Of a stretch of 64,000 nucleotides of DNA, positions 5,947 through 61,013 are shown in pieces. Both the position numbers and the translations under genes were made by a program. The notes under the pieces are model-generated. The model saw only the letters and a list, made by a program, of their open reading frames with translations. It did not search any database and was not told the DNA's origin. The stretch is from Diacronema lutheri (taxonomy: Eukaryota; Haptophyta; Pavlovophyceae; Pavlovales; Pavlovaceae): contig JAGTXO010000013.1 of the NCBI GenBank assembly GCA_019448385.1, forward strand, positions 890,607 to 954,606, written 5' to 3'. Within the stretch, counting starts at the first letter, position 1. Each line of letters opens with the position of its first letter.

Positions 5947-6000
<54 letters not shown>
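5947..6000 (+). repeat. G54 homopolymer
   Basis: Uninterrupted run of 54 G on the plus strand, between the 5' side of the sulfotransferase-like gene and the 3' end of the TMEM237-like gene, both on minus. It would form G-quadruplexes if real. The length may be inexact, because such runs are easily mis-sequenced. Confidence 0.9.
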
Positions 6001-6003
<3 letters not shown>

Positions 6004-30262: not shown

Positions 30263-30584
30263 GACACCCAGAGGTCAAGGTCACGCCAAAACTTCGACGC
30301 TCCTCTCTTCCCAAGCGGGAGGGAGGTTCATGACGTTTTTCAACGCGCTCGCCGCTCGTCACTCGTCGCTGCAGCGTCCGCCGCTGTCGTTGCCAATCAA
30401 CGCACAGGCGACGCTCCGGCGGCTGTTGCGGTACGACGGAGGCAGCGCACGAGGCCCTATCGCTCGCGGCGGGCGAAGGCGCCAGTCTCGGCACCGCGTC
30501 AACTTGGCAGCCGCGCCGCGCCGTCCCCGTCTCGCCGAGTCCCGTTGCGGCCGTTGAATTGTATTCCCAGCACGAAACAGCAGA
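30263..30584. promoter_or_regulatory. Divergent promoter region between LETM1-like and TRPM2-like genes
   Basis: These 322 bp separate the LETM1-like start (minus) and the TRPM2-like start (plus). I see no open frame with coding character, no TATA-like box and no repeat; it must contain both promoters. Confidence 0.45.
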
Positions 30585-40397: not shown

Positions 40398-40460
<63 letters not shown>

Positions 40461-40562
40461 CGTGCACGTAGCGTCGGTCCGAAGTCAGAGCGACGACCCC
40501 GTGCATGCCGGCGGCGGGGACGTCCGGGACGGGAAGGACCTGGCCGCAGGACGTATGGCGGT
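40182..40562. repeat. Spacer with G58 homopolymer
   Basis: 381-bp spacer between the SPX gene and the MAPEG-like gene. It contains an unbroken run of 58 G at 40403-40460, the longest in the window, about 100 bp upstream of the next gene's start. The rest is GC-rich without recognisable features. Confidence 0.8.
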
Positions 40563-41330
40563 ATGGGTCGACGCCCTGATTTCGGCCTGATGTTGCGTGC
40601 GCCCTTTCGCTCGCTCCGTTTGTCCAGCCTCGGCCCCGTGCGCGCCCCTCCTGCTCACCCGCCTGTAAGCGTCGTTAGTAGGTATGGGGCCCGAGAGGGA
40701 GGGGCAAAAACGGAAAATCGTCGCATCGCACCCGTCCGGTTTGCCGTGCGCACGCTCGGCCGCGTGCACGACGCTGGCCCCGCTCGCCTGTTGGCTCTCG
40801 TGGCCGCACTCGGCGCCTTCGCCGTTGCGCTGGCCTTCACACCAGCAGTTTTTCGTCCTGTAAGCGGCTCGATCGAACATCGACTCGCGTTTGCGGCGTC
40901 CGCGCACGGTTGGGTCTTCGCGGCGCTCGCAACATGCGCGGGTGCACCCGAGCTCCGGTCAGTCGCGCCAGGCTCGCAGCAGGCGCAGGTGCGCGGTGTG
41001 ATGATGCAGATGACGCTCGAGCAGGTGGTCCTCGCCGTTGGCGCGCAGGCCGGCTGCGCGCTCCTCCTTCCGCTCCGCGTGCTGCCGATCATCCCAGTTG
41101 CGGCCGCGCTCGCATGCGCAGGCATGCTGCTCTTCTGGTGGGGCTGCGCGTGCGGCGCGACGTTCCGCATGGCTCTTGGCTTCAACCTCGCTTTCTATCC
41201 GTCGGTGATGCTCATCTTCCTCCCTCTCGCCCATCCGCTCGCGGCTCGATCCGGTTTCCCTTTCTTGGTCGAGCCTGCCGCGCTCATCGCCGGCGACTAC
41301 GTCGTGAGCGTGACGCGTGTCGACGTGTGA
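40563..41330 (+). CDS. Multi-pass membrane protein, MAPEG-like
   Basis: Single-exon frame of 255 residues from the ATG at 40563 (246 from the ATG at 40590). After a hydrophilic, basic N-terminus come four hydrophobic segments: LLALVAALGAFAVALAF, LAFAASAHGWVFAALAT, the stretch around AGCALLLPLRVLPIIPVAAALACAG, and a C-terminal SVMLIFLPLAHPL. The centre (QMTLEQVVLAVGAQ, then WWGCACGATFRMALGFNLAFYPS) is reminiscent of the NTLEQ...R..GY pattern of MAPEG proteins (glutathione and eicosanoid membrane enzymes). Several hallmark residues differ, so enzymatic function should not be assumed. Confidence 0.55.
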   Translation: MGRRPDFGLMLRAPFRSLRLSSLGPVRAPPAHPPVSVVSRYGAREGGAKTENRRIAPVRFAVRTLGRVHDAGPARLLALVAALGAFAVALAFTPAVFRPVSGSIEHRLAFAASAHGWVFAALATCAGAPELRSVAPGSQQAQVRGVMMQMTLEQVVLAVGAQAGCALLLPLRVLPIIPVAAALACAGMLLFWWGCACGATFRMALGFNLAFYPSVMLIFLPLAHPLAARSGFPFLVEPAALIAGDYVVSVTRVDV

Positions 41331-42101
41331 CGCGTGCAGTGCCTGGTCGAGCGCGGGCGCGACCGCGCCGTGCAAGGGCTCTATGCGTGGCGTTTTAAGG
41401 CCGTTTGATGGGGTCAGATCGACCCGCCGATGACTCCTGCACGGTCAACACAGTCCAACATAGGTGGGGCGCCAATCCGGATCGACATCGGCGATCGACA
41501 CTGGAAGCAACTCGATCCCGCCGTCGCCGGACCCTCTCAGTGGAGAGCCCAGGCGTCCCTCGCGCCCTCTCGGCTCGCGCCGACAAGGGCGCATTATGTA
41601 CCATGTCTCCTCGCCGGCAAGCTCGGTGCCAGCGGGGGTTCAAGCAGGCGCAGAGCGCCACCCACCCGAGAACAAAGTGGGCGACATCGTATATAAGTAT
41701 AGATGGTCAAGCCAAATCCGATCAGGGGCACGATCGCGCCCCGAGTGCAGCGCGGGCCGTTCGGAAGGACGTCCTTGTGAGGGAGCTCTTCGCGTTTGGC
41801 GAGCGGGGGAGCACGACGCGCAGCGTTGCTGCGGCGGCGTGCGGGCGGCGAGCAGCGGTCGGGCTGCTCGCGACGAGGCCGGAGCAGACGGCGCCGTGGC
41901 CGCCGGCGCAGGTGACGCGCGCCGACGAGCCGTAGCGAGCGTCCGTGATCCGCACGGCGGTTGGAGCGGGCCGGCTGGTGCGGCGCGCTCGGCCACGGGT
42001 GGCGGCGTGCACGGTCGTGCCGCGCGCGGCACGCGTCGCCAGCCGCGCGCGACCTGGGCAGAGCCCGCAAAGCGTCGACCGCTGCGCGGCTCGGCCGTGC
42101 G
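41331..42101. other. 3' flank of the Fanzor gene; candidate guide-RNA / element-end region
   Basis: These 771 bp lie directly downstream of the Fanzor stop on minus. No coding sequence is convincing. It contains a small hairpin at 41411-41425 (GGGTC-AGATC-GACCC), a strikingly AT-rich island TATATAAGTATA at 41690-41701, and repeated GATCGACA words near 41483-41500. Fanzor and TnpB guide RNAs usually start in or just after the 3' end of the nuclease gene, so this is where an fRNA and the element's terminus would be expected. That placement is inference. Confidence 0.35.
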
Positions 42102-45100
42102 TCAACGCCGGCCGCGCTTCGGCCCGCGCGCGCTGCCGCCGCCGGCACTGGCGCTGGCAGCTCCGCGGGCGGGGGTGCGGGCGCGAGAGCCGCCGCCGCC
42201 ACCGCCGCCGCGCCCGCCGCCGTCGTCGCCACCGCCGTCGCCGCCGCCGCCTCCCCCGCCGTCATCGTCGTCGTCGCCGCCGCCGCCTCCGTCGCCGTCG
42301 CCGTCGCCGTCGCCCTCGCCGCCGCCGCCGTCGCCGCTGCCATCGTCGTCGTCGTCGTCGTCGCCCTCGTCGTCGCCCTCGTCGTCGCCGTCGCACTCGT
42401 CGTCGCAGTCGTCGCCCTCGCCGTGCACCATGCGCTCCTCACGCTCCCACACCTCGCCGCGCGCCCACCAGGCGAGCACGAGGGCAAAGCGCTCAGGCGT
42501 CGACGTGGTGTCGCGCCCGGCCGCGTGCGCCGCCATGTCGTGCACGTCGTAGAAGATGTTGCGCGCGGCGTTGTAGTCGCGGTGCACGGGCTTCTTGCCG
42601 CCGTTGCACGCCGGGCAGATGACGAGCGCGTGCACCGTGCGCGTGCCGCCCTTTGCCACGGGCAGGCGCGGGTTCTGCGCGAGCTCCGCGCCGCAGCGCT
42701 GCAGCCTGCCGCCCTTGGCGAGCCGCGGCATCGAGCAGTGCATCGACGTGTACGGCTCGGGCACGAAGACGGCCGCGACGCCGCGCCGCCGCAGCTCGCG
42801 CAGCAGCCCCACCTGGAAGGCGGGCGGCGCGCCCTTGGGCTGCGCGCCCTTGTGGTCGCGCAGCCACTTGCCCACGCACACGAGCAGCCGGTCGCGCGTC
42901 ACGCCGTCGACACAGTGCGCCGCGATGAGCGCCTCGGCGACGCGCGCCGCGTTGGACCGCCCGCCGCTGTCGCGCCGCCAGCGCTCCTTCCGGCGCGCCG
43001 GCGCGTCGTACACGTGCTCGGCGGCGCGCTCGCGCACCCGCGCGCTCTCGCGGTGGAAGGCGATGTATTTGCCCGCGTCGAGCACCTTGGCGCTGTGCGC
43101 CTCGCCAAGCCGCGCCTCGTCCGCCTCCACGCTGAACTCCTCGCCGCGCCCGTCGGTGCGCACGCGCCGCCGCGCCGCGTTGGTCTTGGCCGTCTCGCGC
43201 GCAAAGCCCGCGGCGCGCGCGCGCGCGCGCTGCGTGAACTGCCGCCAGACGGCCGCCCGCCCGACGTGCGCAGAGTAGGTGGTGATGTTGCCCATGTTCG
43301 GGTCGGCCGCGACGACGACCGCCGCCTCGACGTCGATCGCCCGCCGCAGCTCGGAGCCGAGCGCGACGGCGATGCGCCCGTCCGGCCGGCGCCAGCGGTG
43401 CAGGACGCCCGAGCCGCCGGCCGGCGCCTGCGCCTTCGGCACGAGGACGGTCCCGACGGCGTGCACGGCGACGCCATCTGTCACCACCGACTTGACGGGC
43501 TGCCGGCCCGGGAGCGGCACGCGCGGCAGCGGCGCGAGGCCAACCCACGAGCGCCGCGCGTGCCACGGCAGATCGGCCGGCGGCCGCTCGCGCCCGGCGT
43601 AGTCGAAGACGCGGTTGGAGATGTCGAAGCGCGTCGCAAAGACCGCGTACCTGACGCGCACGTCCGACATCGGCGGGGTGTTGCCGTTTGTGCCTGTCCA
43701 CTTGATCGGCTCGCCATCGTGGTCGCGCAGGTCCAGCGCCTTGAGCCGCGCGCGCAGCTCCTTGCGCTCGTCATCCGAAAGCGTCACCCAGATGGCGCTC
43801 GCGGCGAGGCGCACGTTGCGCGGCACCTGCGCGCAGCGCGCGGCGCGCGAGCGCGCGGGCGCGTGACCAACCTGGCCGCGGGGCGGCGCGCACGGCGGCG
43901 GCGCGCGCGCTTGGGCGCTCGGCGGCGGCAGCGGCAGCCACGCCTCGCGCGCACATTGTGCGTGCGCAGCGGCGCCACATTGTACCGCGGCGGCCGTCCG
44001 GTCAGCTGCGTGTGGATGTGCGCGAGCCGGCAGAGCAGCGCCTGCCCCTCGGCCACGTGCTGCAGGGTGCGGATCTGCACGAGGAAGTAGCGCGTCGTGT
44101 GCCGGTCGTAGTTCCACCTTTTCGTGGGCGTGCACTTGTAGTCGATCTTGTGGAGGACCATGTCGGGCAGGTGGCGGTCGAGCGCGGCGGGGCAGCCGAC
44201 GCGCGCGCCCTCCACGTCGCCGCGCAGCAGCCGCTCGCACAGCTCGCGCACGCGCGCGTTTCGCTGCATCTCGGGCAGCGCGACGAGCGCCTCGTCGCGC
44301 TCGACTGCCGCGCGGACGACGTCGCGGAGCAGCCCGTTCACGACGCGCGATGGATGCATCAGGCACGCGGTGGACACCTGCGTCGCCTCCGCCTCGAGGA
44401 TCTCCGTGAGGCCCACCGCGCAGACGGGCTGGACGCCCTCGGCCATCTCGCCGACGGCGCGCGCCGTCGCCGCCTTGGTCTGCGCGGCGGCTTGCTCGGC
44501 GGGCTTGCCTCGGGGCGCTGCACCGTACGTGCTCTCGTCCTTGTGCCAGCCGATGGCCGAGAAGATCGCACGGACGGTTCCCTTGTCCATCGTGGTCGAC
44601 GTGTGCACGCTGGTCGACGGGCCGCCCGACGCCGCGCCGACGGCCTGCGCGCTCGCCACCGCAGCCTCGTCGCGCACCACCTTGTTGATGACGCGGTACG
44701 CCTGTGTCGTGAGCCTGTGCACGGCCGCCGCGATGCGCTGCAGCTCCTTCCGCGCACCGGGCTGCGCCGTCACCGCCTGCGGCCCCGCGTTGAGCGTCGA
44801 GCGCTTGACCACGAAGCCCGGGAGCACGCTGACGCGCGTGCGCGCCGTCGCGCCGCCGGCGGCGCGCGCGCTCGGCGCAGCGGGCTCGTCCACGCGCGCG
44901 CGCTCGACGCCGCGCGCGCGGGGAACGCTCGGCGCGCGCGCGCCCGCGGCGTCGCGCGCGCTCGCGGCGGCACCCGCCGCGGCGCGCTTGCCCGCGGCGC
45001 CCGACTCGCCGTGCGCGCGAAGCGGCGCCGACGCCAATGCCGACGCCGCGCCCGCGCCGCCGCTGCCGCTGCCCGATACGCCCGCGCGCCGCTTCTGCTC

Positions 45101-48100
45101 GTCGCGCGTCTTGCGGAACTGGGCGACGAGGTCGCTGCTCACGTTGGCCTCAGGCTCCCACGTGTCGGCGCTCTCGTCGTAGCCCCGCCACCTGATCCGG
45201 AACTGGAACGTCACCTTCTTGCCCGCCTTGCGGCGCTCGTCGACGACCGCCTCGACCTCGTACGTGCGCGCCTCCTCGTCGACGCTCGCGCCCGCCGCGC
45301 TCGCGCCCGTGTCCGGCCACCCAGCGACCGTGCCGCCCAGCCTCTCGGCGGCCGCGCGCAGCTGCCGCTCGCGCTGGGCGGCCGCGGCGCCTCGCGCGAC
45401 CAGCGCGGGCAGCATGCCCGCGCCGCCCGCGAGGCCGTGCGCGCCGACGCTGGCGGTCATCAGCGCGTCGAGGCACGCGAACGTTGCGAGCGCACGCGCG
45501 CCATCGTCGCCGCCGCGCGGCTGCGAGCGCACGACGGGCGATGGCCGCGGCTCCCCCTCGGCCGCGAGCAGCGGCCAGATCGCACTGGCCAGCGCGACGG
45601 CATGCGCGCCGACCGCGACGGCCACGTCCGCGTCGAGCGGCGCAAAGTCGTAGCGCACGAGCGCGGCCGGGCGCGAGTCGTCCGTCGGCCGGTCGGCGAC
45701 GAGCAGCCCGACCGGGCGCGGCGGCTCGCCGGACGGCGCGGCGACGGGCACGCAGAGGAGCACGACGAGCAGGCGCGGCGTGCCGCCGAGCAGCGCGCGC
45801 GCGGCATCCGCCCCGTCGGCTCCGCCGCGCGCGGCCGCGGCGAGCAGCTCGGCCGCGCGCGTCGGGCCCAGCGCCGTGCGCGCGTCCTTGCGCGCGCGTG
45901 CGCGGGCCGTGTACGCGGCGCAGGCGTCGTCGAGCACCGCCGCGCTGGGCGCGGTGCCAGTCGTCGCCCACGCGCGCAGCGCGTCGCGCACCCGCGTGAC
46001 GATCGCCTGGTCGACCGCCGCCTCGCCGGCAGCGTGCGCCGGCGCGCACGCCGGCGGTGCGGCGGCAGGCGCGAGCGCGGGCGCGCCGTCGGCGCCGTCA
46101 ACGCCGACGGCGCCGTCGGCGCGCCGCCACGCGAGCTTCGCCTCGATCTGCTGCCGGACGGCGTGGCAGTGCCGGTCGATGCCGCGCGCGTCGTCGAGCG
46201 CGGCCAGCGCGTCCTCAGCGGCGGGACGGCCGCTCGCGTCCGCGACGGCCTGCAGGCAGAGCAGCGCGGCCGCACGCGCGTTGCACGCGCTCTGCGGCTC
46301 GGGCGCGAGCGCGAGCTCGAGCTCGAGCGGCGACGCGCCTCGCGCCGCGGCGATCGCGTCCATCAGCACGTCCAACCGCTGCACCAGCGCCCTGTGCGCG
46401 TCGCGCGGCGCGCCCGTCGACGGCGCGCGCGAGCGCGTCGCCAGGAGCCCGAGCGCGCGCGCCGGCGCGCCCGCCGGCGTGTGCAGCACGAGCAGCGCCG
46501 CGCCCGCCAAGCTCGCGTTGCGCGTGACGAGCGCGAAGATGCGCGTCGCCTCGTGCGCGCCCACCGACGCCCAGATCGCAGCGCGATCGGCGTCCGTCTG
46601 CGCGTCGCACAGGTCGCGCACGTCGTCCGGCGCGAGCAGCGCGCCGCCGCCGGCGGAGCGCGCGACGATCGCCCGCGCCTCCGCCACGAAGACGGCCTGC
46701 GGCAGGTCGGCGTGGCGCGCGTCGACGATGGCGCGCGTCGCGTGCACGCCGAGCTCCACGCCGCGGTAGAAGGCGCGCGCGTTGGCCGCGCGCGCGTGCG
46801 CCGGCCGTCCGTCCGCGTTGCGCCTCGCGCGCGCCTGCTTGCTCGTGCGCGCGAGGCCGTCGCGTGGCGGTGGCGGCAGCGTGGCGAGGAAGCGCGCGGC
46901 GGGCGGCGGCGCGCGCACGCCGCGCTGCCGCCGTGCGATGGCCGCGAGCCGCCGGCCCGCCGCGCTGCCGCCCGCGCCGACGTGCTGCCGGCGGCCGAGC
47001 GCCGCCGGTGGCGGCGGCGGCGGCGGCGCGGCGGCGGGCGGCGGCGCGACGGCGGGCGGCGGCGCGGCGGCGGGCGGCGGCGCGGCGGTGGGCGGCGGCG
47101 CGGCGGCGGGCGGCAGCGGCGGCGGCGCGGCGGCGACGGCAGCACCAGTCGGCTTGTCCGCCCACGCACCCGAGACGCTGTCCCAGGCCTTGCCCGGTGG
47201 CGCGCGCCCACGCGGCCGCGGGTGGCGGGCTCGAGCGGCGGGGGGCGGGCGGCCGGCGCGCCAGTCGAAGACAGGTGCAACCGTGGCGGCAGGCGCCGAG
47301 TGCAGCGCGTCGGTCACAGAGCGCGTGGTGCGCGCGGCGACCGTGGCGCGCATGGCGGGCGGGCGGTGAGCAGCGCCCGCCGGCGCGCCGGCGGGCGCGG
47401 CAGCCGGCGCGCCGGCGGGCGCGGCCGCCTCGAGCCCGGCGGAGGCGCCGCGCTTGCGCTTGCGCGTGCCGCCGCGCGTGCGCCTGCGCGCGCGCCCGCC
47501 GCGCGCCCGTGCGGCCTGCGCGTCGCCAGCCGCGTCGCCGGCCGCGTCGCCGCGCCGCACGTAGACGATCGCGAACGCCTCCTCGCCGGTCCCGTCGACG
47601 CCGCCGCGCGCGCGGCGTAGGACCGACCGCCACTGCAGCCGCCGCGCGCGGCCGGGCTCGCACGCAAACCAGCGCCCACCGCGCCTGACGACGGCCACAA
47701 AGTCGTCGTCGCGCCGCCCGCGCCGGCGCGTGCGCAGCAGCACGCACTGCACGTCGAGCCAGCCCTCGTGCCAGTCGGCCGTGCTGGGGGCGACGCGAAT
47801 CGACTGCGGGAGCTCGACGCCAAAGCCGGCGAGGCGCACGATGTGCGCGACGATGACGCTCGAAATGGCGGGGGCGCTCGACGGGTCGTCCGCTGCAGCG
47901 AGCACCGCCTCGCCCCAGTGCTCACGCGTGACGCAATCCGCGTCCTCGACGTGCACGTGCGCCACGCTCGCGCCGAGCTGGTGCAGCAACGCGCAGATGT
48001 CGGCGTCGACCGTCCTCTCCTCCTCGGCCGCCTCGGCCGTGCCGCGGGCGGCGGCGTCGCCCGCCGGCTGCCCGAGGTACGCGATCGCCCGCTCGACGGC

Positions 48101-51100
48101 CGCGCCCTCCGCACGCGCTGCGCTGTCGATCGCCGCATTGCCGACGGGCGCGCGCAGCGCCGCGATCGCGTCTTGCAACGCCGTCGCGTCGCCCGTCGCC
48201 GCCGCCGCCGTCACCGCCGCCGCGCTCGCGGTGCCGTGCGCGACGGCGTGCAGCGCGGCGGCGCGCGCGGCGGGGATGCGCCCGTCCAGCGCGAGCACGA
48301 GCGGCGGCCCGGCCGGCGTCTGCTGCCGCCGGTGCCGCCGGCTCGCAGCCGGGTGGTCGGTGCGCGCGCGCTCGAGCCGCGCGCGCCGCTCGACGACGCG
48401 CGCCCAGAAGGCCTGCACCCTCAGCTGCGCGAATGCAAGCCAGCCGGCGCCGCGCGTCACGACGTGCACGACGATCCGGTCCTCGTGCCTGAGGTACTGC
48501 ACGTAGAGCGCTTTGCTCACGCCGAGGACGTGCATGCCGAGCTGCAGCTGATCGCGGTGCGGCTGCGGCGGCCCGTCCTCGTGCGCCGTGGCGCCCGCCT
48601 TGGTGAGCGTCTTCACCTCGACGAGGACCTGCTCGTTGTTTTCGGGGAGGATGGCGAGCCCGTCCGGCGAGAAGGCGAACGGCGCGCTCTTGTCGTGCGG
48701 GTCCGCACGCACCATCGGCAGGTTGCACACGACGGTGATGCCGTACGCGGCCGCCAGCTTGCGCAGCGCGACGGCCTCGCCGAGGATGCCCGCGGTCGTC
48801 GCCTTGGTCCGCACCTCGCGCCGCCGCCGGTGCACGTACTCGTCGGTGAGCGTCTCGTGCGCGACGCCGGCGTTGTCGTTCACGACGTCGCCAACCTTGC
48901 TGCCCGTGACCTCCTCCCATCGCTCGTCGTGCCAGCGCGGGCTGCGCTGCGCGGGCGCGCCCGCGCCGACGGCGTCGAGCACGCGGCGCAGCGCTGTGCC
49001 GTCGGGCGCAGCAGGCACGCGCGCGCGGTCCTGGGCCTCGCGAGCGTCGAGGACGCGGCCCGTAGTGGAATCTTGGGGTAGGTCGAGCTTGCTCGCCTCG
49101 CCGTAGCGGCTCTCCAGCTGGCGCGGTGCGTCGGCAGGGCCGCCGTCCGTGCGCGCACCCGACGCGCCCGCCAGTGCACGCGGCGCAGCGTCCGAGGCGC
49201 CCGCCGCGCCCGCGCCGCCGCCAATCGCGCCAGCGCACGCGCGCGCCGCGACCTGCGGACGGCCAGCCGCAGGGACCTCGTCCGCTCGGCCGGCCGCTGC
49301 GTCGGCCGTCCGCTTGGCCACCTCGCGCACGTCTCCGAGCGCGAGCGTGGCTGGCGCCGTCCAGCTCCCGTTGCGTTTGTCCCAAAATTTGAGCAGCCCG
49401 CCAAGGAAGGGCGTGCCCGTCGGGCGGTCCTCGGGCACCTCCGCCAGGATCGCGTCGACGCGCAGCGCGGCCGCCACATCGCAGAACGCGCGCGCGGCGC
49501 GCGCCATCCGCTCGGCGCGCGCGCCGCCGTCGTCCGCCGCGCGGCGGATGGCGTGGCTCACGTGCGCGACGCGGAGCGAGACGACGGCGTGCGCCGGCGC
49601 GTCGGCGCCCGTGCCGAGCGTGTGCCGCCGGATGGCCAGCTGCCCATCGCCCATGCGCGGCGGCAGCGACGCGCACGCCGCGACGGTCGTCGTGCCGGCC
49701 GCGCTGTCGCACAGCCAGCTCGCCTCGCCGCCGCCCGCAAACTCAAAGGTCGCGAAGCCCTCGCGGCCGAAAAGCGCGACGAAGTGGTCGAGCACCGCCT
49801 TGTTGATCGCGCGCGCCGCCGGCCGCGTCGATGCGCCGCGGGCAGCGCCACCCGCCGCGCCGCGCGCATCGCTGCACGTCGCAGGGCAGGTGCAGCCGGA
49901 CGCGCGCACGCCGTCCGACCGCGTCCGCGGCAGCTCGAGCTCGCGCACCTTGGGGCAGAACCAGAGCGGGTTGGACGCCTCGAGGCACAGCACGACGAGC
50001 CGCCCGTCCGTGCCGGCCAGCGCGCGCGCGTCGCGCAGCAGCTCGACGGCGAGCTCGGACGTCGCCGCGTGCACCGCCGGCTCGCCCGTCGCGCGGTCGG
50101 GCGGGAAGAGGCCGCCGCCGACGAGCGGGCTGGGGCAGCGGCCGAGCATTACGAGCAGCGGCGGCGGCGGCGTCTGCGGCGCCTGCTGCCCGACCGCAGC
50201 CGCCGTCAGCCCGGCCAGGTCGGAGCTCGTGCGGAGGGCCTTGAGCGCGACGCGCGAGCCGGTGCCCGCCTGCTCGGAAAACGTGGCGAGCATGGCGCAC
50301 GTGCTCGCCCTCGCGCCGCACTGCCAGCTGACGCGCGCGAGGAGGCCTTCCAGCGTGTCGTTTTCGCGCGGCCGCGTGACCGCGTCGAGCGCCGCCGGGC
50401 CGAGCTGGAGGCTGCCGGGCGTGACGCACAGCACCGCCTCGTGGTAGGCGCGCAGCAGCTCCCTCGGCAGCTGCTCGGCGGGCGTCGCCGCCTGCTCGCC
50501 CACCCACCGTACACCGTGGCCGCCGTCGCCCGCGCCCGCGAGCCGGACCGCCGGCCCGCCCGTGATCGCCGAGGTCGGTGGCGTGCCGAGCGCGTCGACG
50601 AGCGCGCGCACGGGCGCGACACGCCTGCGCGCAGCGTCCGCGCCGACGGCGAGCGCGGCGATCTGAGCGCCCTCCCATGCGCGCTCCCTCGCGTCGTCCC
50701 GCGCGGCCGCCGGCGCGGCGCCCGGCCGCGCGCCGGGCGGCACCGCGCACGCCGCCGCGACGACCTCCGCGCGCGCGCCGGCGGCGTCGGGCGCGTGCAG
50801 CTGCGCGAGCGCGCCAAAGAGCGCGGCGGCCGAGCGGTAGCGGCCGTGCGCCGCGACGAGCGCGTAGAGCACGCGCAGCGCGGCCACGCCCGCCTGGTCG
50901 GGCGCGTCGCCAGCGATGCGCCCGACCTCCCACGTGCGCGTGGGCGGCGGGCTGCCGTCGGCCGGGTCCGGACGCAGCGCCCACGCGCGCTCGACGATCG
51001 CGTTGAACACGTCGCGCGCGGCGCCCTCGTCAAACTCGGCGGCGCCCGCCGCGTGCGCGCACCACCCGTGCACGCGCGACGTGGGCGCATCCACGGCGCG

Positions 51101-52643
51101 CTGCACGACGAGCACCGCCGGCCGGTCGACGCAGCCGAGGCTCACCGCCGCGTGCTTGCCCTCGAGCAGCGCCGCCGCCGCAGCCTCGACCAAGGCGTCA
51201 CCAGGCGCGTCGCCGACGACGACGGCACAGCCGTCGCCGTACTCGGCCTGCATCGCGGCGACGCACGACGCGACAAAGTCGCCGCCCGCGGCCGCCGCGT
51301 GTCGCGCCGCCAGCATCCGGCGCGCGATGGCAAGCCAGACGTACTCGGCCGGCGCGCGCGCGGCGCGCGCGCGAGGCGCGCCGGCCGCGCCGCGTGCGCC
51401 AGCGCGTGCGCCTCCAGCGGCCGCAACGGCCGAGGCGGCTGGAGCGGCGGTGAGCGTGCGCCGCGCGCGCTTCGCCGGCCGCGCGATGGGCGATGCACCC
51501 GCCGTCGCACCGCCCGCAGCAGCCGGTGCGGCCGCCACAGCGCCCGCCGCGACGCCACTCGTCACGACGCCCGTGGCGGGCGGCGCGGCGTCGGACGCGG
51601 CCGCCTCGACGGGCGTCGCGCAACTACCGCCAGCGGTCGCGGACGCGCCCGGCGACGCGTCGGCGAGGAGGTGGCGCAGCACGCCGCGCGCGAGCGCGAC
51701 TCGCACGGCGAGCGTCAGCGCGCGCAGGCGGTCGGAAGGCGAGGCGTCGCGCTCGGCGTCGGCGGACGTGGCGGCAGCAGGCGGGGCGGCGGGCGGCGCG
51801 GCGGCGGACTGGGCGGCCGCCGGCGCAACCTCGTCGGCCTTGGCCAGCCAGACGAGCCCGGCGACTGCGAGCACGACGCTGTACGCGCCGACATCGTCAC
51901 CCGCAACGCGCGCCAGCCGGGCGTGGGCGTCGGCCTCGGACACGGCGACGCGGAAGAGCACGTCGTCGCGGGCAGCTTGCTCGGCAAACTGACGCAGCTG
52001 CTTGGCCATCGTCACGCCGGCGACGCACGCCTCGCCCGCCTCTGCCTCGACCTGCTCGTCCTGGCCGATGGCGGACGCGCCGGCCTCGGCGCCACCGTCG
52101 AGTGTCCGGCGGCGCTCGAGGGCAAAGCCACGCACACAGACGCTCTGGAGGCCGCCGAGCGCGCCCGCCTTCTCGTGCAGCGCGCACGACAGCTCGACCA
52201 CCGAGTCCACGCGCGTCGCGGCGGCGCCCCCCCGCTCGCCGCGCGTGGGCGCGCGCACGACGAACACCGTGAATTGCGCGCGCTTCGCCGCGCGCGCCGA
52301 CGCGCACGCGTGCTTCAGGAGCCGGCAAAGCGCGGGCCTTTGCGCCGCTGCGCCCCGCGTGCACAGCAGCAGTTGGCCGCGCTCGTCGCCCAGCTCCTGC
52401 TCGATGGCGGCCTCGAGCGCGTCGTCCGTCAAATCGCCGTGCTCCGTCGAGGCGAGCGCGCGCGCAGCCGCGAGCGCCAGCTCGCCTGCGCCCGCGCGCC
52501 GCCGGCGGCGCGCACCGGCGGGCGCGTGCGGCGCCGACGCGTGTGACGACGCCGCCGCGTCCGCGCGCGCACACGCGGCGCGCAACGCCTCACGCGCCGA
52601 GGCGGCCGCGCGCGCCCTGGGCGCGAGCCTCAAGAACGTGCGC

Positions 52644-52730
<87 letters not shown>

Positions 52731-53868
52731 TCGCCCGCGTCGCCGGCCGGCGGCGGCGGTGGCGGCGGTGACGGCGCGGCCACGGCGGCGGCAGCAGCGG
52801 CGGCGGCGGCGGTGGCGGCGGCGGCGGCGCCCAGCGCGGGCGGCGGCGGCGTGGCGGCGGCGGTGGCGGCGGCGGTGACGCCAGCGGCGGCCTTGGCGAC
52901 GCGCGTCTGCGGCGGCGCTTCGGCGCGATCGGGGCTGCCCCCGCCACGCACCGCGCTCGTGCCCGCGCAGACGCCGCCCGGCGCACGATCGCTGGCCGCG
53001 CCGGTCAGCGCGACGCGGAGGCGCTCGCCGACAGCGTACATGTCCGCCACGCTGAACGTGCGCGGCGCGGACGAGCAGCCCGCCGCGGCGAGCGCGTCGT
53101 TGAGCGCGCCCACTATCGCGAGGCCGCACGTCGCGCCACGCTGCGCCGCCTCGTCGAGCAGCCGCGCGCGGCGCACGCGCGAAATGTCGAGACCCGCCGC
53201 GTGCAGCGTGGCAGTTATCGCCGTGGCGAGCACGAGCGCCCGCCTGCAGGGCGACGCGAGCGTGTCGACGAGCACCGCGTCGTAGCGACGCTCGCCCGCG
53301 CGCGCGACGCGCACAAGGCGCAACGCGGTGAAATGGCCGGAGGCGAGCTGCGCGCCGTCGTCACCGCCCGCGCCGCCGCGCTCGTCCGACGGGCTCCACA
53401 CGCCGATGACAGCCTGCGTCGTCGCCTCGCTGCGCAGGCGGTGCAGCAGCGCGGCGCGCTCGGCGCCGTCCTGGAACACCGCGGGTTGCGCGGCGAGCGG
53501 CACGTGGCAGACATGCCCGCCGCCGGCCTGCCCGTGCACGCGTAGCACGACCTCGCAGCACGCGTCGACGGTTGAGGCGAGCATGTCGCCGCTGGCGATG
53601 CGCTCCACCTCTGCCTGCGGGAGGCCGGCGCTCGCGGCGGCGGAGGCCAGCCGGCGCGCAGCCGCGTCGCCCGCCCACGCAAGCAGCGCCGAGTTGGCGG
53701 GTTGGAGGGGAAGCTCAAGGGCGGCTGGTTCGGTGGCGGTAGCCTCGTTGGCAACGGGCACGTTGGCGGTGCGCACGTTGGCGGCGGGCGCGGCGGCGAT
53801 GGCTGGTGGGGCGGAGGACACGCCCGCGGCGGCAGGCGCGAAGGCGGATGGCGCGGAACTAGTTGCTC
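42102..53868 (-). CDS. Fanzor-containing giant protein, downstream half (Ulp1-like, YqaJ, chromodomain, Fanzor)
   Basis: Two exons on minus, about 53868-43955 and 43826-42102, join in phase 0 (aat|gtgcgc to gcgcag|gtg) to link NVAPLRTHN with VPRNVRLAAS, as expected for a Fanzor N-terminal domain. Domains in order: Ulp1-like cysteine protease (53.6-53.1 kb), Ala-rich linkers, YqaJ-type PD-(D/E)XK nuclease (48.9-48.5 kb), chromodomain (45.3-45.1 kb), Fanzor (44.8-42.4 kb) and an acidic D/G repeat tail. No in-frame ATG occurs before 53584, inside the first domain, so translation probably enters from the upstream half, whose frame it shares across one TAG (53891-53893). I regard it as a mobile-element protein; a separate gene cannot be excluded. 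Confidence 0.72.
42190..42430. repeat. Triplet-repeat tract encoding the Asp/Gly tail
   Basis: Degenerate (TCG/CCG)n trinucleotide tract; on minus it encodes the Asp/Gly-rich C-terminal tail of the Fanzor protein (runs of D and G with interspersed E). It is length-unstable by nature and is not needed for the nuclease fold. Confidence 0.75.
42480..44800 (-). other. Fanzor (eukaryotic TnpB/IS605 OrfB) nuclease domain
   Basis: C-terminal part of the giant protein. The N-terminal half begins near TLNAGPQAV with LQRIAAAVHRLTTQAYRVIN and ends at TGRPPRYNVAPLRTHN before the intron (43827-43954). RuvC motifs: VVVAADPNMGN (Asp codon 43302-43304), VFVPEPYTSMHCS (Glu codon 42756-42758), and PVHRDYNAARNI (Asp codon 42576-42578). 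Cysteines in MHCS, LQRCG and ICPAC form the zinc finger between the last two. At the usual RuvC-II position (LLVCVGKW) there is no Glu; the Glu before YTS, about 40 residues on, would serve instead, which fits the rearranged active site described for Fanzor. Activity as an RNA-guided DNA endonuclease is inferred. Confidence 0.85.
45115..45275 (-). other. Chromodomain
   Basis: A complete chromodomain lies about 105 residues before the Fanzor domain: TYEVEAVVDERR, then FQFRIRWRGYDESADTWEPE and LVAQF. The aromatic-cage positions of HP1-type domains are all present (Tyr of TYEVE, Trp of RWRGY, Tyr of RWRGY). Such domains bind methylated histone H3 tails and, in chromovirus integrases, steer insertion to heterochromatin. 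Confidence 0.88.
48480..48930 (-). other. YqaJ-type PD-(D/E)XK nuclease domain
   Basis: Residues visible on minus: RWHDERWEEVTGSKVGDVV, then AGILGEAVALRKLAAAYG (the conserved Glu), FAFSPDGLAIL (Asp), VLVEVKTLTK (the ExK pair) and HRDQLQLGMHVLG (Gln). The order and spacing match the lambda-exonuclease/YqaJ recombinase family, which resects DNA ends for single-strand annealing. All catalytic positions are intact. It is in the same frame as the chromodomain and Fanzor downstream. Confidence 0.82.
52637..52728. repeat. (GGC)n tract encoding poly-alanine
   Basis: About 30 GGC/GCC triplets, encoding a poly-Ala linker between the Ulp1-like module and the following segment of the giant protein. Confidence 0.85.
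53090..53600 (-). other. Ulp1-like (C48) cysteine-protease module 2
   Basis: Catalytic-type residues in canonical order: His in SGHFTALRLVR, Asp in YDAVLVDTLAS, and Gln/Cys in EAAQRGATCGLAIVG. The spacing (H to D about 23, D to C about 47) is close to Ulp1. Ulp1-like proteases of transposons are thought to cleave ubiquitin-like modifiers or the element's own polyprotein. Confidence 0.65.
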
Positions 53869-54095
53869 CTGCACTCGCCTCCCCGCCCCGCTAGCCGCTG
53901 CCGCTGTCGCGTCCGCCACCTCGGCGTCGGTGAGGCTGTGCAGCTAGTGGGGCGGGAAAATCGGCGGCAGGCGCGAAGGCGGATGCAGCAGCGGCTAGTG
54001 CGGCGGGGAAAACACCGTCGGCGGCAGGCGCGAAGGCGGATGCAGGAGCGCCCAGCGGGGCGCAGAAAACACCGTCGGCGGCAGGCGCGAAGGCG
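53828..54095. repeat. 57-bp tandem repeat flanking the in-frame TAG
   Basis: A 23-bp core starts at 53963, 54020 and 54077 (exact 57-bp period; the last copy is truncated), with a further copy at 53828 beyond the TAG stop. On minus each copy encodes SAFAPAADGV-like sequence in the same frame on both sides of the stop, which argues that the two halves were once one coding sequence. Confidence 0.75.
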
Positions 54096-57000
54096 ACAGC
54101 AGCAGCGGCCAGTGGAGCGGAGGCGCAGGGCCACGCGCGCGCCAGCCGTGCAAGCCCAAGCCGCGCGCGAGCGACGCACGCGCCGATGGCCGAGGCGGCG
54201 GCGCAGGCCACGACGTGGCCTGGCACCGGTGTGGCCAGCCGCTCGCGGGTGTGCACGTCGAGCCGCGCCCCACGCCAAGAGCGGCGGCGCGCTGAACGGA
54301 GGCGCGCGACCCCGATCGATCCGCCCGCGCACGCGCGCGCCGGCTCAGTGTGGCCAACGCGCGCCGCTATGCAAGGCGCGCGCGCGATAACGGCGGCTGT
54401 CGGCCGTGGCGTGCGCGTGGCGGCGCCGCGGCGACGGGCGCGGCACACGAGCCGCTCGGGCGCGCCGCCGCCGCGCGGCACGATGTCGAGCAGCACGGTC
54501 ACGCCGCGCGCGCGCGCGACCGCCGTGCACGCGAGCCGCACGGGCAGCGGCGGCCCGTCCGGGCGCGCGAGCGCCGCCACCTCGGCGTCGGTGAGGCTGT
54601 GCAGCTCGCGGCGCGCGCGCGCGAACGCGGCGATGTCCGCGCGCAGCTCCGCGTCCGTGCCGAGCGCGGCACGCGCGTGCACGGGGAGCGACGCGCGCAG
54701 CGCGTGGAGCACGCCGCCGCGCGCGCCGCGCGGCGCCGGCGCGCGCTCGCGCTCAGCGCGCGCGGCGCGCGTGAGCTCGCGCACCGCGCGCGCGAGATTG
54801 CGCCGCGCGGCCGCGACGGGAGGGCTAGGTGCGCGCGCGCGCCGGTTGTAGCGCGGCCGCGCCGAGTCGAGGGGCGGCGGACGCGGTGCGTACGCCGCGG
54901 CGCGGCCCGCGCGCCAAAAGGCCGGCGGCGGGCGCAGCTCCGTCGCGTCGACCGCGGCCGCGAGCGCGCCGAGCGCGGCGTCGCTGTCGCCCGCCGCGTC
55001 GGCCGCGTCGACGAGCACGAAGAGCGCGCCGAGCGCGCGCGACGCGGCCGCCTGCGCGGCGGTGGGGCGGGCGCAGGCAGCGACGCATGCGGCCGCCATG
55101 CCGCGCGCCGCGGCGAACGCCGGTGACGTGACGGCCGCGCCGATGGCAACGGCGGCGGCGGCGACGGTCGAGGCGGCAGCGCCGGCGATGGAGGTGGCAG
55201 CGGCGGCGGCGCTTGCCATCGCGCGGCGCGCGAGACGCGAGGCGCCACCGACCGCCGCCGCCGCAGCGCGCGCTGCGCGCGCGCCGGTGGCGCGCATCGT
55301 CGCCGCGCCAGGCGCCGCCGCGCCGACGCCGCCGGCGCCCGCGCCGTCGCCGCTCTCGGCCGTGCAGGGCTCCGATGGCGAACCCGGCGTGCGCTGGCGC
55401 GTGATGCGCGCGCCGAGGCGCGCGCTCCGCGCCGCGCGGCCGGCGACGTCGAGGAAGCGCCGTGCGCGCGCCGCGCGCAGGCCACGCGCGCGCGGCGGCG
55501 CACCGACAGGCGCCGAGCGCCGCGGCGCGCACGCCGGCGCGTCGCTGTCGGGTTGCGCAGCGCGCGCGCGGGAACTCGGCGCGGCGTGTGCGGGCGGCGG
55601 GCGCGCGCCCGCGCGGCGCAGAGGCGCGAGGCGCCGGCCGCAGACGAGGCGTGTGCGCAACCAGGACGGCGAGGGCCGCAGGGCGCCGTCGACGTCGCGC
55701 ATCGGCGGGCCGCGAGCCCGCCGCGCAGCCGTGCGGCGCGCGCGAGGCGCTCGGCGGCGCGCGCGCCGCACGGCGCGCGCGGCGGCGCGCACGCCAGCGA
55801 CGGCTGCGGCCACGCCGCGCGCCAACACGGCCGCGGCGTGCGCCATCGCACCGAGCACGGCGCGTGGCGCGCCGAGCAAGCGCAGCAAGCGCGACGCCGT
55901 CGCGCGCGCCGGCGCACCGTGTGCAGGGGCCTCGCCAGCGCCAGCACCGACGCCGCCATCGCCGCAGCCGCAGGTGGCGTCGCCGCCGCCGCAGGCGTCG
56001 CGACGGACGCCGCCGCCGCCGAAACAATCGCCGCACACGTCGCCGCCGACGTTGCCACCCCAGCCGCCGTTGCGTGCGCAGGTGGCTGCGGCGCGTGCGT
56101 GCGGGAGGCGTGCCGTGCGGCGCGCATCACACGGGCTGCGCGACGCGAGCGACGCCGCCGGGGTCCCCGCTGCGCCAGGCGCGCCGTGCGCGCCAGCCTC
56201 GCCGGCCTCGCCGGCGCGCGGTCGCGCGCTCGCCTCGACGTGGCCGCCTCCGCCGCCATCGCCGCCGTCGAACCGGGCGGCGGAGGGCTGCCGCTCGAAC
56301 CGCTCGTCGGCGTCGGCCGCCACCGCCGCCTCGCGCTCCGCCGCCGCGGCGGCCGCACGGCGCGCGTGGCGGAGCGCGCGGCCGCCGTCCGCTGCGCGGC
56401 GTGGCGGCGCGGGCGCCGCCTTCGGCGCGCGCGGCCCCTCGGCGCGCTCGCGGAGCACGGCGAGCGGCGTGCCCGTGGCGACGCTCGTGCAGACGCGCCG
56501 CAAGGCGGCGCTTACGCACGCGTGGACGACGCGCGCCGTCCGCTTGTCGGCGGCGCGCGCGGCGCGGCGCGCGGCCTTGGCGGCGGCCTTTTTGGCGCGC
56601 CTCCGCTCCGCCTGCTCCGACAGCGCGCGCGCCTGGCGCTCGGCTGCGAGCGCGTCCTCGGGCGAAACGGTCGGCCTCGGCGGCCGCGCGCGCGCGCTGC
56701 GACGCTGCGCGCTGCGGCGGTCGGACGGCGGCTGCCGCGGCGGCGAGGACGGCGGGCGCGAGCTCGGCGTGGGCGACCAATCGCCGCTGACGGTTGCGAG
56801 CGGCGCAAACGGGTTGTCGTCCCCGCGCCCCGCGGCGTGCGACAGTGCACGCGGCGTCGGGCGCCGGCCGACCGCTGGCGGGCCCCACTCGGACGGCGGC
56901 TCCGAGGGCGAGCGCGCCGTCGGCGCCGCGCGTTGCGCGGCCGGCGGCGCCTCCCGGTCCAGCGCCGCCTGCTCTCTCGCCGCGGCCTGCTCGTCACCCT

Positions 57001-60000
57001 CCGGCACGCCACGCGGCGCGAGCACCGCGGTGGCGCAGCGCGTCGCGTTGAGCAACGCCGCCTCCATCTGCCGCACGCTGGCCTTGGCGCACGCCACACC
57101 CTGTCTCGCCCGGCGCAGCGCCTCGTGCGCGCGGCGCACTTCCGCGTCGGCATCTTCGCGCATGCCAAAGTGCGCCTGTTGCAGCCGCAGGTCCGCAGGG
57201 CGCCCCTGCGCGCGAGGGGCACGGGCGCGGCGGCGCGCAGGTGACGGAGCTGGCGCGCCGTTCTGCGCTGCGCGCACGCCAATCGACGGGCGCGCGCGCG
57301 GCGGGGCGCGCGCGCGCGCGCGCGCGCGCGCTGCCTACCCAGCCGCCGGCCGGCTCGCGCGAGCGCGCCAGCTGCTCCGCCGCCTCGGCGTCGAGCACGC
57401 GCTGCTGCGCCTCCTCCTCGCCCAGTGCAGCGAGGTGCAGCCGGCGGGCTGCCTTGCGGCAGTTGCCCTCCGCCTTGCCCACGGCCTTGCGCGCCGCGTC
57501 GACGGGGTCGTCGTTGGCTCTGGCGCGCCTGCGCTTGCCCTTGTCGGCGGGCGGCGGCTCGGCGCGCTGCAGCGTGCCGAGCGCGTCGTCGGCTCCGCGC
57601 GCGGCCGCCCGCGGGCGGCGGGCCCCAAAAAGCGCACCGGTCGCCGTGCGCGCCGCGCAAGCAACGACCAGCGCTGACATGCCGGCGAAGACCGCACCGC
57701 CCAGCGCCACGGTTGCCACGATGCGCAGCGTCCCGTGCGCAAGCTGCGCTGCCTCCGCCGCTTTGGCGGCCTCGCGCGCGCGCGCATTGGCGGCTCTCAT
57801 CTCGTGCAGCAGCCCGGCCGCGCCGCTCGCGCCGTCGCGGCCGCGCGCGAGCTCGCACAGCACCGCCGCCGCGCGCCGCGTGGGCTCGTGCGCGAGCAGC
57901 TGCGCGCCGCCGTCGGGGCGCAGCTTCTCAACGAACTCGACAAACGTCGCGTCGCGCCAGAGGGACATGCGGAAGGCCCTGTGCACCGCCCCCTCCTGCT
58001 CGCGCATCCGCCGTGCCGCCCGCCTGCCGTCGCGCGCGTGCGCGTGCGCGGCCGCGTCGACTCCCGCGACGCCGCGCTGCGCGTCGCGCGCGGCCGACGA
58101 CGGCGCCGCCGCGCTGCCCGCCAAGGGCGCCGCAGCGGCGACGCGCGCGTGCGGAGCGACGGGATCGCCGGCGGCCGGCGGCTCGGCGCGCTGCGGCGTG
58201 CCGTTTGCTCCGCGCGCGGCCGTCCCGGGGGAGGTGGCCGCGATGGCGCCGCCAGCCGCGCCGCGCGCCAGCCACGCGCATAGGCTGCCGACGAGCTCGC
58301 CGAGACCCCCGACGGTCGCCGCGGCGGCGAGTGCGCCGGGCTTGCCGGCCGACAGCGGCTCGCGAGCGTCGTCGTCGCAGCCGCCGGCACCCGTCTTGGC
58401 GAGTGCGTCGCGCTCGCCCTCGACGCCCGCCACGACCGCCGCCCCTCCGTCGTCCGCCGCGCCGGCCGCGCGCGCGGCCGGGCGCAGAGGAGGCGTGCCG
58501 GTGCAGCCGTCGCCGCTCGTCTTCGCCGTTTCCTCCACTTTGGTCACTTCGTCGCCACCTGCGCCATCTCCGACGCCGGGGCCCTTGGTCACGCTTGCCG
58601 CCATGCGCGCCGTGCCCGCCGGCCAGCCCGCCGACTGCTCGAGCGCGGCGGCGAGCGGCGCGACGCGCGTCGACTCGGGCGCGCTCTCGTCATCGGGCTC
58701 GAGCGCGTTGTGCAGGCGCGCGAGCGCGCGCTCGACGGCCGCGGCGCCACTGCCGGGGGCGCGGCTCGCCGCGCGCACCGCGCGCCGCCAGGCCGGCGCG
58801 AACATGAGCGCCGGCTCGAGCGCCGCGAGCGCGCGCGCCTCGCGCGCGTCGCTCGCGCCGAGGCGCGGCGGCACGCGCGCGGCTCCGCGCGGCGCGGTGC
58901 CTCGGAAGCGTGGGCTCAGCGTGTAGGCGAGGTGCTGCGGCACGCCGCGCGCCTCCGCGCGCGCGCGTCCGTCCTCGACCTCGCGCCGCGCCTTCGCGAT
59001 CGCCGGCGTGGCGCGCGCGAGCCAGTCGGGGTCGGCGGGCAGGTGGATCACGACGAGAATCGGCGCCCAGTCCAGCCGCGGGTTCTTGTGACGGTCGGGC
59101 ACGACCCACACGAGCAGCACCGTGCCCTCCGCGCCGCACGCCGCCTCGTAGATCCTGGGCTGCGAGCGCCAATCGGGCCTGACGCGCAGCGCCCGCGCGT
59201 GGTCGATGGCGGCGGCGCGGTCGCCATTGAAGTGAACCGTCGTCACCTCGCCGATGACGGACCGGCCGGACCGCCAGCAGAACACCGCGTCCGCCGACCC
59301 GCCGGCGATGGCCGCGAGCGATTCGGGCGCGGCGAGCCGCGGCAAGCCCTCGAAGGCGGCAAAGTCCTCGTGCGCATTGTACACGCCGCCCCAGCCGTCG
59401 TGCGCGTACGCGCGCGCGGCCGCTCGTACCGCGCGCGGCTGGTTCTCCACGCCCGACGTCATGTGCCATGTCGTCCCCGCGAAGCCGGGCTCGCCCAGCT
59501 CGGCCCGCACGACGGTACCGTACCCCGCGCCCTGCGTCGGGGCGGCGAGGTGGTGCATGCCCGCGCCGGTCACGCCCTCCGTGCGCTGCCGCGTGACGAT
59601 CGTGCCCGTCGCGTGCGCGAAAAGCGTGTCGACCACGGCGGGCGCGCGCCCGCTGTTCGCCCGTGGCCGCGCCCTGCCCGCTTTTAGCTGCTCGGGGTCC
59701 TTGGCGTCGTACACGCGCGCGTCCGCGTCGCCCTCATCAGGCGCAGTGTAGACGCAGCGGCGTTCGAGCGGCGCCGAGCCACCGCCGTCCGCCGCCGCCG
59801 GCGAGGTTGGCGCCGCGCCCGCCGCCACCGCGCTCGTCGCCGCCGTGCCCGTCGCCACCGCCGCAGCCGCCGCGCCCGCGGGGTCGTCGTCCCCGTCCTC
59901 CGCGCCCTCCCCGTCGTCAGCGGTGGTGGCGTCGCCATCGTCCCCGTCGCCCTCGCCCCCGCCGAGGCTGCTGAATGGTCGGGGCCCCCACGCCGAGGCG

Positions 60001-61013
60001 GCGCGCCGCTGCGGCGCACGCGGCGGTGGCGCTCGCGACGGCGGCCTTGGCGCCGCCGCGCCGCGCGGCCTGGCCGCCGTCGACAGCGCGCGGCCTGCAG
60101 CGCCCGTGAGCGCGTCGAGCGCGGCCGTGCGTGCGATGCGGTCGTCGGGCGCGCGCAGCGCCGCCTCGACGGCCTGCAGCAGCCCGTCGGGCGCGGATCC
60201 GCCGACACTGGCATCGCACGCCTCGGCGAGCCGCGCGGCCTCGGCGAGCCGCGCGGCCTCGCGGGTGAACGGGCCGAAGCGCCTGGCGCGGTCGCCGAGC
60301 AGAGCGCCGATGGCGGCGCGGAGCGTGCGCGCGCGGGTCTCCTCGTACGCGGCCGTCGTGAGGCGCGCGAGGCGCGCGTCCAAAGCCTTCTTGATGTCGA
60401 CAAGGACACTCGCGCGGCGGCCGTAGAGCGTCAATGCGCTCGCCACGACCTCGGCCGCGACTGTTGCCGCGGCGAAGCAACACGCGGCCCCACTCTGCGG
60501 GGGCGCCTTGAAGGCATCGATGGGCGGCGCTGTTCTGCCGATGCGCTGCGCAAGCTTCTTGATGAGCACGCCGGCCGCCGTGGCGTACGCCGATTCGCCG
60601 TTGCCCAAGGTGCGCGAATCGGCGAGCAGGGCGAGCGCGGCGCCGGGCGGCGCGCCGCGCTGCGCGGGCGGCGCGAGGAGCAGGTACGCCGCCGTCCAGT
60701 GCACGAGGCCGCTGGACGCGCGGAGGCAGAGCGGTAGCACGACCACGAGCACCTGCCCAAACCGGTCCGCATCCGCGCATGCTTTGCGCAGGTTGCGCAG
60801 CGCCACCTTGAGCGCATGCTGCGAGCACCCCGTGTCGCCCACCCTAACCCTGCTCGTGCCGAAATCCGCGTAACGCAGCAGGGCGATGAGGCAAGTGGAT
60901 GGGACCACGTGGGGGTGGGTATCTCCCGGCGACAGAATGGTGCTGAGGGCCAGCGAGAAACTGTCCGAGCCGCCCCGCCCGCCGGGCAAAGCGTCCTTCA
61001 CGGAGTCCTCCAT
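53891..61013 (-). CDS. Giant protein, upstream half (Ulp1-like, nuclease-like, coiled coil)
   Basis: Two exons on minus, 61013-57339 and 57205-53891 (or 53920 if spliced onward), join in phase 0 at ctgg|gtaggc and gcgcag|ggg, linking two parts of one coiled coil (EGNCRKAARRLHL to HFGMREDADAEVRRAHEAL). Residues about 84-190 form Ulp1-like module 1. Residues about 500-650 resemble a YqaJ/restriction-like nuclease with a damaged motif. A membrane segment (LRIVATVALGGAVFAGMSALV) lies near 1098-1120, then Ala/Arg-rich sequence with a second hydrophobic stretch. A candidate 51-nt intron (53869-53919; gag|gtggcg to gtgcag|ga) would bypass the TAG and fuse this to the Fanzor half, giving about 6,199 residues. 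Confidence 0.62.
53914..53945. repeat. 32-bp duplicated segment
   Basis: These 32 bp are identical to 54575-54606, where they encode LHSLTDAEVAAL in frame. The copy at 53914 is read in a different frame and supplies the donor of the candidate 51-nt intron that removes the TAG. Confidence 0.85.
59080..59500 (-). other. Degenerate PD-(D/E)XK nuclease-like domain
   Basis: In the upstream half, MTSGVENQPRAVRAAARAY, then SADAVFCWRSGRSVIGEVTT and later VLLVWVVPDRHKN follow the same pattern as YqaJ nucleases (Glu; Asp; ExK). The lysine of ExK is replaced (EVT), so it may be inactive and structural. The assignment is by pattern only. Confidence 0.4.
60440..60770 (-). other. Ulp1-like (C48) cysteine-protease module 1
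   Basis: Near the N-terminus of the upstream half: SSGLVHWTAAYLLLAP (His), ALALLADSRTLGNGE (Asp, with the following Ser typical of Ulp1), and KAPPQSGAACCFAAATVA (Gln and Cys). H-to-D and D-to-C distances (about 27 and 46) agree with Ulp1 folds. This gives two such modules in the giant protein. Confidence 0.65.

Follow-up and report, generated by a model that had tools for sequence, protein, structure and literature searches.

Can a Fanzor nuclease form the C-terminal end of a single protein of about 6,200 residues, and what kind of element would carry such a gene? The question is raised by a stretch of 64,000 nt from the alga Diacronema lutheri (assembly GCA_019448385.1, contig JAGTXO010000013.1, forward strand, positions 890,607-954,606), here called the window, in whose minus strand a preliminary description had placed such a protein in four exons. 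We found that the window contains the last 22.3 kb of a high-copy mobile element of ~31 kb. In the C-terminal half of its main gene, a Fanzor, a chromodomain and an exonuclease of RecE type are joined, as far as the sequence shows, in a single reading frame, and the product of the whole gene is probably one protein of about 6,200 residues. The genome searched comprises 43.49 Mb in 103 contigs, and the window is the terminal stretch of contig 30, position 64000 being the contig end. For the published assembly, the available text of PMC8379373 gives 43.503 Mb in 103 contigs with 73.25% GC; the DNA studied here has 75-83% GC.

Four segments on the minus strand with GT-AG edges and agreeing phases add up to 18,600 nt, i.e. 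6,199 residues and one terminal stop, as had been described. Exon 1 (57339-61013, 3,675 nt) begins at the first ATG that follows a stop further upstream, and after it comes intron 1 (57206-57338, 133 nt, GT-AG), which includes a run of GC dinucleotides. At the other end, exon 4 (42102-43826) codes for the C-terminal part of the Fanzor and is preceded by intron 3 (43827-43954, 128 nt, GT-AG). The two segments in between, taken earlier as exon 2 (53920-57205) and exon 3 (43955-53868), are merged into a single middle exon in a copy of the element on contig 7. The 51-nt intron 2 proposed to separate them (53869-53919) did not stand: since the copies on contigs 7 and 9 carry an unbroken frame of SAFAPAAD repeats at this place, we rejected it in favour of a local, copy-specific rearrangement (53848-53939, minus strand) with one in-frame stop (53891-53893). 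The window's variant was found at full length twice among the 64 matches listed (40 of 332 candidates scored), and since the elements with these two lie close to the ends of contigs, the variant may be an assembly fault. On contig 7, a single open reading frame (ORF) of 4,504 codons runs from exon 2 through exon 3 without a break up to the N-terminus of the Fanzor. The gene of this copy consists of exon 1 (3,675 nt), a stop-free middle exon (13,215 nt) and exon 4, together 6,204 codons, with two introns of 133 and 128 nt that correspond to introns 1 and 3; with these two introns only, the earlier view that the Fanzor forms the C-terminus of a candidate protein of ~6.2 kilo-residues holds. Contig 7 is a second witness for the middle of the gene only, because it is nearly identical to the window elsewhere. 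The 3' end of the element at 41697 was found in eight loci, and intron 3 was identical in 8 of 8 loci.

With 3,368 codons, the exon-3 ORF is far longer than expected by chance: when 42102-61013 was shuffled 100 times with dinucleotides preserved, the longest ORF had a mean of 891 and a maximum of 1,373 codons. A codon model derived from two host ORFs of the window was applied to all six frames in 21 blocks, none longer than 300 codons; the asserted frame came first in 19 of them and an antisense frame in the other two, which start at 54505 and 52966. When part of exon 3 served as training set, a sliding codon score passed from the exon-1 frame to the exon-2 frame across 57206-57338 and from the exon-3 frame to the exon-4 frame across 43827-43954; it was weak, about zero, around 56660-56930. 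The coding signal moves directly between frames at introns 1 and 3 and therefore argues against separate genes. The annotated host protein KFE25_006464, from a diverged copy, reads LRTHN-VPRNVR in its protein record, as if spliced at intron 3. This protein starts as a Fanzor fragment and continues into SAM domains; it is possibly a fused gene or a mis-annotation. The distance from exon 1 to the Fanzor differed from that in the window by a multiple of three in 37 of 57 copies (13 and 7 in the other classes), which is supporting evidence only, since intron 1 contains the GC run and the coding part contains codon-sized repeats.

The domains of the C-terminal half were largely as described before. 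The YqaJ/RecE/lambda-exonuclease-type nuclease domain (48380-48958, minus strand) matched PHROG_434 with an E-value of 2e-14 over 193 residues, and TIGR03033 (E 2.1e-5) and PF09588 (E 0.022) gave matches that were both under their cut-offs. The chromodomain (45110-45262, minus strand) was recognised by PF00385 (E 4.5e-12) and by chromodomain sequences in the PDB (best E 5.5e-9); by eye, it has Y, W and Y at the positions that we take to be those of the aromatic cage. For the Fanzor C-terminus, the zinc-binding domain PF07282 scored 28.5 bits against a cut-off of 26.3 (E 1.7e-6) and a four-cysteine zinc finger is present in exon 4. NF040570 (guided TnpB), however, reached 13.9 bits against a cut-off of 100, which we counted against the assignment. 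RuvC-like residues were located by eye in exon 4 at D5800, E5982 and D6042. The C-terminal motif described for Fanzor and TnpB proteins in the parts seen of PMC3627910, D-X(125,275)-[TS][TS]XX-C4 zinc finger-X(5,50)-RD, is present, with D5800 as one of six possible first D residues and RD at 6042; taken alone this is weak, because the whole protein, when shuffled, matched it as well in 2 of 200 cases. A search of PDB sequences with the Fanzor gave three matches, none significant, among them Cas12f1 (E 0.42) over the C-terminal part, and PADLOC gave two weak matches in exon 4 with E-values up to 0.01. Chromodomain and Fanzor lie in one frame that was open in all eight loci read, two of which (contigs 68 and 69) may be one insertion because their 3' flank is identical.

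The N-terminal half fared differently. Two Ulp1-like proteases had been proposed, but neither candidate stretch (60444-60755 and 53120-53335, both minus strand) had a Pfam match at E 1 (E 5 for exons 1 and 2) or a convincing match in the PDB, and the assignment by profile was rejected on this evidence. In both, an H/D/Q/C pattern can be picked out by eye, which leaves them as unconfirmed candidates; the residues of the second are kept in a shorter form of the element described below. The segment formerly called a degenerate nuclease found no profile support, and HHalign among 11 candidate segments revealed no shared repeat (best probability 4%).

The part of the element that lies in the window occupies 41697-64000 on the minus strand. 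In eight copies, similarity to the window runs to 41697 (within 2 bases) and then ends; other copies place the 5' end of the long form ~8.8 kb beyond position 64000, giving the total of ~31 kb. Counted genome-wide as exact matches to short patterns, the 3' end occurs 193 times, the 5' end 190 times, a 30-mer of the Fanzor active site 224 times and the first 30 nt of exon 1 142 times. If all 142 exon-1 copies are taken as full length, the element would account for ~4.4 Mb or roughly one tenth of the assembly, which is an upper estimate because truncated copies are counted whole. It is a repeated mobile element with about two hundred near-identical copies, apparently recently amplified. The main text of the genome paper gives repeats as 22.9% and has no word starting with "transpos" (PMC8379373). 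Position 1 of contigs 1 and 12 coincides exactly with the 3' end of the element, which fits assembly breaks at these repeats.

Besides the long form there is a shorter one of ~21.6 kb (contigs 34 and 101, and contig 5 with a cut 5' end), which was read except for its middle (about 45.3-49.1 kb in window terms) and has its ends and its 3' part in common with the long form. Its main ORF has different N-terminal residues and enters the common part near residue 2,381. Because of this form, a length of 6,200 codons was rejected as a fixed feature of the family. The first 100 of the 224 Fanzor sites include 57 at which exon 1 starts 18.3-19.6 kb further upstream and 23 that have the 5' end in the absence of the exon-1 start. 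An inverted repeat pair with TGTAGGG units lies at 8024-8890 of one locus read, inside the 5' part of the element, near the point at which long and short forms begin to diverge.

The ends of the element are sharp. CTATAC terminates 14 of the 15 3' ends read, the remaining one being at a contig end, and five of six 5' ends read start with CTATATA, the sixth with TTTACAT. CTATATAN stands before the 5' end at 150 places, compared with 190 for the slightly longer 5'-end pattern alone. Between the Fanzor stop and the 3' end lies a tail of 405 nt (41697-42101, minus strand), without a single variant between the window and the aligned copies, which is a candidate omega-RNA scaffold whose guide would be derived from the flank. 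A Fanzor gene that ends 405 nt from the 3' end of its element corresponds to the layout of TnpB elements.

Upstream of the region covered by the window, the copy on contig 9 encodes matches to the PIF1 helicase in two frames (PF05970, E 1.9e-15 and 1.8e-24) and to Pif1_2B (E 6.2e-13). Genome-wide, PIF1 was scored at 150 places out of 414 candidates, 148 of them with 84-92 bits. A match to a ubiquitin C-terminal hydrolase (UCH) was found upstream in both forms, in one copy of each and in a second long copy.

On balance, we favour as probable that what lies in the window is the 3' two thirds of a giant DNA element with a main protein of ~6,200 residues; for its spread we propose an RNA-guided cut-and-copy mechanism. 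Read-through from the 3' end of the element into the flank would give an omega-RNA with the 3' flank as guide, and the chromodomain would keep the complex on marked chromatin. The Fanzor would then cleave the unoccupied target on a sister or homologous chromosome, with CTATATA at the 5' flank serving as a site like a target-adjacent motif (TAM); the fused exonuclease would resect the break and repair would copy the element in. Initial insertions might be made by the PIF1 helicase encoded upstream together with a recombinase that is unidentified or acts in trans, and the ubiquitin hydrolase, as well as the proteases if real, might process the giant protein or oppose silencing. A stronger version, an RNA-guided homing mega-transposon in which one protein combines chromatin reading, cutting and resection and little or no classical transposase is needed, appears quite doubtful to us.

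Several observations weigh against this cut-and-copy reading. Production of the protein as a whole is predicted from the reading frames, and the omega-RNA, TAM and homing parts are inference only. The fold of the 405-nt tail had a z-score of -1.13 and 12 of 100 shuffles were as good, so that it is not clearly better than chance. In the shorter form, a different sequence replaces 53.7-64.0 kb of the window and exons 1 and 2 are missing. Neither the exon-1 start nor the 5' end was found in the tested ranges at 20 of the first 100 Fanzor sites; two of these (contigs 5 and 40), partly read, are cut on their 5' side, and the other 18 may include stand-alone Fanzor pieces. The PIF1 pieces are spread over different frames, so that the helicase may not be intact. 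The ORFs scanned gave no profile match to a Rep, a transposase, an integrase or a recombinase, and the Rep domain PF14214 occurs at a single place in the genome, outside these elements (contig 63, 35738-36019, E 8.3e-23, motif FFTFTANPAW). The 31-kb repeats may be mosaics, since the assembly was made from PacBio reads with CANU and 48 kb is described, in the available text of PMC8379373, as about twice the read N50. In favour of the reading, synonymous divergence (dS) between long and short form is 0.043 and nonsynonymous divergence (dN) 0.025 over 1,516 codons, and net indels keep the frame; in the most diverged block (residues 2381-2630), dS is 0.19 and dN 0.086. The signal rests on residues 2381-2880, the later blocks having 0-3 synonymous and 0-5 nonsynonymous differences each. 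Among recent copies compared with the window no constraint is visible, since exon 1 has 14 nonsynonymous and 1 synonymous differences and exon 2 has 7 and 3; exon 4 has none.

The alternative that survives best is a rolling-circle element of the Helitron2 type with a captured Fanzor, like those of Chlamydomonas, which a Rep protein from elsewhere would move in trans; we regard it as a serious possibility that nevertheless falls short of being probable. It would account for the PIF1 helicase with its Pif1_2B domain, and Fanzor1 has been reported in non-autonomous Helitron2 elements in the parts seen of PMC3627910. Moreover, a comparison of the first 41 with the last 90 nt gave as best inverted match (at most one mismatch) the 10-nt sequence GCGCGG(T/G)CCG, matching at 9 of 10 positions, which lies near the 5' end and, asymmetrically, immediately before the 3' hairpin. 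However, the terminal hairpins were not clearly better than shuffles (z -0.01, -0.80 and -1.29), the ends are not of the TC...CTRR type, and no Rep motif was detected by pattern in the stretches tested. The Rep on contig 63 is a possible source of Rep in trans, but this contig has no CTATATAN 5' end among the places listed, which run by contig order to contig 74. We did not file the element as a Helitron because its hairpins are within the range of shuffles and the Rep domain is found at that one place.

It is rather unlikely that the frames belong to several genes, with exon 1 and the rest as separate units, the Fanzor being made from an internal start and the long frames reflecting dense GC-rich coding. 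The ORFs of exon 1 (1,345 codons) and exon 2 (1,147 codons) are, taken singly, below the shuffle maximum of 1,373, the shorter form has its Fanzor part behind another N-terminal region, and the prototype Fanzor is a single protein of 633 residues according to the parts seen of PMC3627910. On the other hand, coding resumes 133 nt after the donor of intron 1, too short a gap for a normal intergenic region, and past this donor the score of the exon-1 frame is negative. The unbroken ORF on contig 7, running from exon 2 to the Fanzor N-terminus, also speaks against several genes, as does the absence of a methionine between residues 5139 and 5414, i.e. from the chromodomain to a point inside the Fanzor.

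Equally unlikely in our view is a TATA-targeting element of the tyrosine-recombinase or cut-and-paste type with an unrecognised transposase within the giant protein. The CTATATA at 150 5' ends and the CTATAC at the 3' ends would agree with it. In six copies with both ends read, inspection by eye showed that a TATAC duplication fits three, TATA only fits two and neither fits one, and no duplication was seen outside the TATA motif; in the ORFs scanned, no profile of a transposase, an integrase or a recombinase gave a match, which stands against such an enzyme. Exonuclease, PIF1 and Fanzor genes are also present in large DNA viruses, whose gene content overlaps with that of the element. A decaying endogenous virus or virus-derived element is nevertheless very improbable, even though viral Fanzors exist (PMC3627910, parts seen), since the ORFs scanned matched no profile of a capsid, a packaging ATPase or a polymerase, two scans of IMG/VR with exons 3 and 4 gave 2 and 1 pattern matches of which tblastn confirmed none as a relative, and sharp ends and a high copy number fit a transposon.

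How does the element compare with known systems? Already known are Fanzors in algal Helitron2 elements (PMC3627910) and giant transposon polyproteins (PMC6431247), both as far as the sources were seen. The D. lutheri element resembles the former in that an intron-bearing Fanzor lies in an algal DNA element, and the short asymmetric terminal repeats and 3' hairpin reported there have weak counterparts here. The coding content described there, however, is five or ten Fanzor1 exons, whereas in D. lutheri the Fanzor ends a protein of ~6,200 residues with an exonuclease and a chromodomain in a 31-kb element, and in the main text of PMC3627910 the words YqaJ, Ulp1, protease, chromodomain and fused have zero occurrences. 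With TnpB-type systems, as presented in the parts seen of PMC10432273, it has in common the C-terminal nuclease motif, a gene near the end of the element with room for an end-proximal guide RNA and a conserved motif at the opposite flank; unlike these, it is eukaryotic, has introns and fused domains, no TnpA was seen and the guide RNA is inferred. The Burro elements of planarians are likewise mobile, giant Gypsy-like elements whose polyprotein ORF1 has 4,873 or 5,140 residues and accessory domains, but they are retrotransposons and the word Fanzor is absent from PMC6431247. Unlike phage-type RecE/lambda exonucleases, the nuclease matched here over 193 residues by PHROG_434 is inside a giant fusion, in one frame with the Fanzor.

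A literature search of titles and beginnings of abstracts, with subscription papers and some preprints outside its reach, found, among the entries listed (20 of 36 in one case), no report in which a Fanzor is joined to either a chromodomain or a YqaJ nuclease, and no paper on Fanzor with YqaJ. Protein searches with two parts of exon 3 (2700-3304 and 1-2700) gave no match at E 0.001 among 2,533 and 2,509 scored candidates, but a record of 6,200 residues would escape them because the scored candidates have 1,817-5,782 residues. The search with the Fanzor, with 8,000 scored candidates, gave two matches, a 570-residue ENA protein that is 99% identical to exon 4 and KFE25_006464. Concerning the endonuclease activity of Fanzors, the parts seen of PMC10432273 contain the words "remains unknown" and discuss help to transposition as a possibility. 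Here, a Fanzor, a chromodomain and a phage-type recombination exonuclease appear in one frame in a sharp-ended, high-copy element, and this arrangement would allow the study of RNA-guided cutting in the upkeep and spread of a giant mobile element itself. The cut-and-copy idea is made testable by it, since a single locus yields predictions for the guide, the target motif and the resection enzyme alike. Natural fusions of a Fanzor with a chromodomain and with an exonuclease would also be of interest to genome-editing work.

An Rfam scan of the window at the gathering threshold gave no match. Elsewhere in the window, an ORF of 1,405 codons that resembles a TRPM channel is located at 30558-34772 on the plus strand; its domains are LSDAT/SLOG (E 1.8e-41) and TRPM2-like. 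On the minus strand there are a leucine-rich-repeat ORF (13504-15690) and an ORF with a weak match to LETM1_RBD under the cut-off (28046-30274). Two long poly-G tracts, at 5875-6001 and 40403-40644, each lie near one arm of an inverted repeat of 61 nt (84%) and may be the ends of another mobile element.

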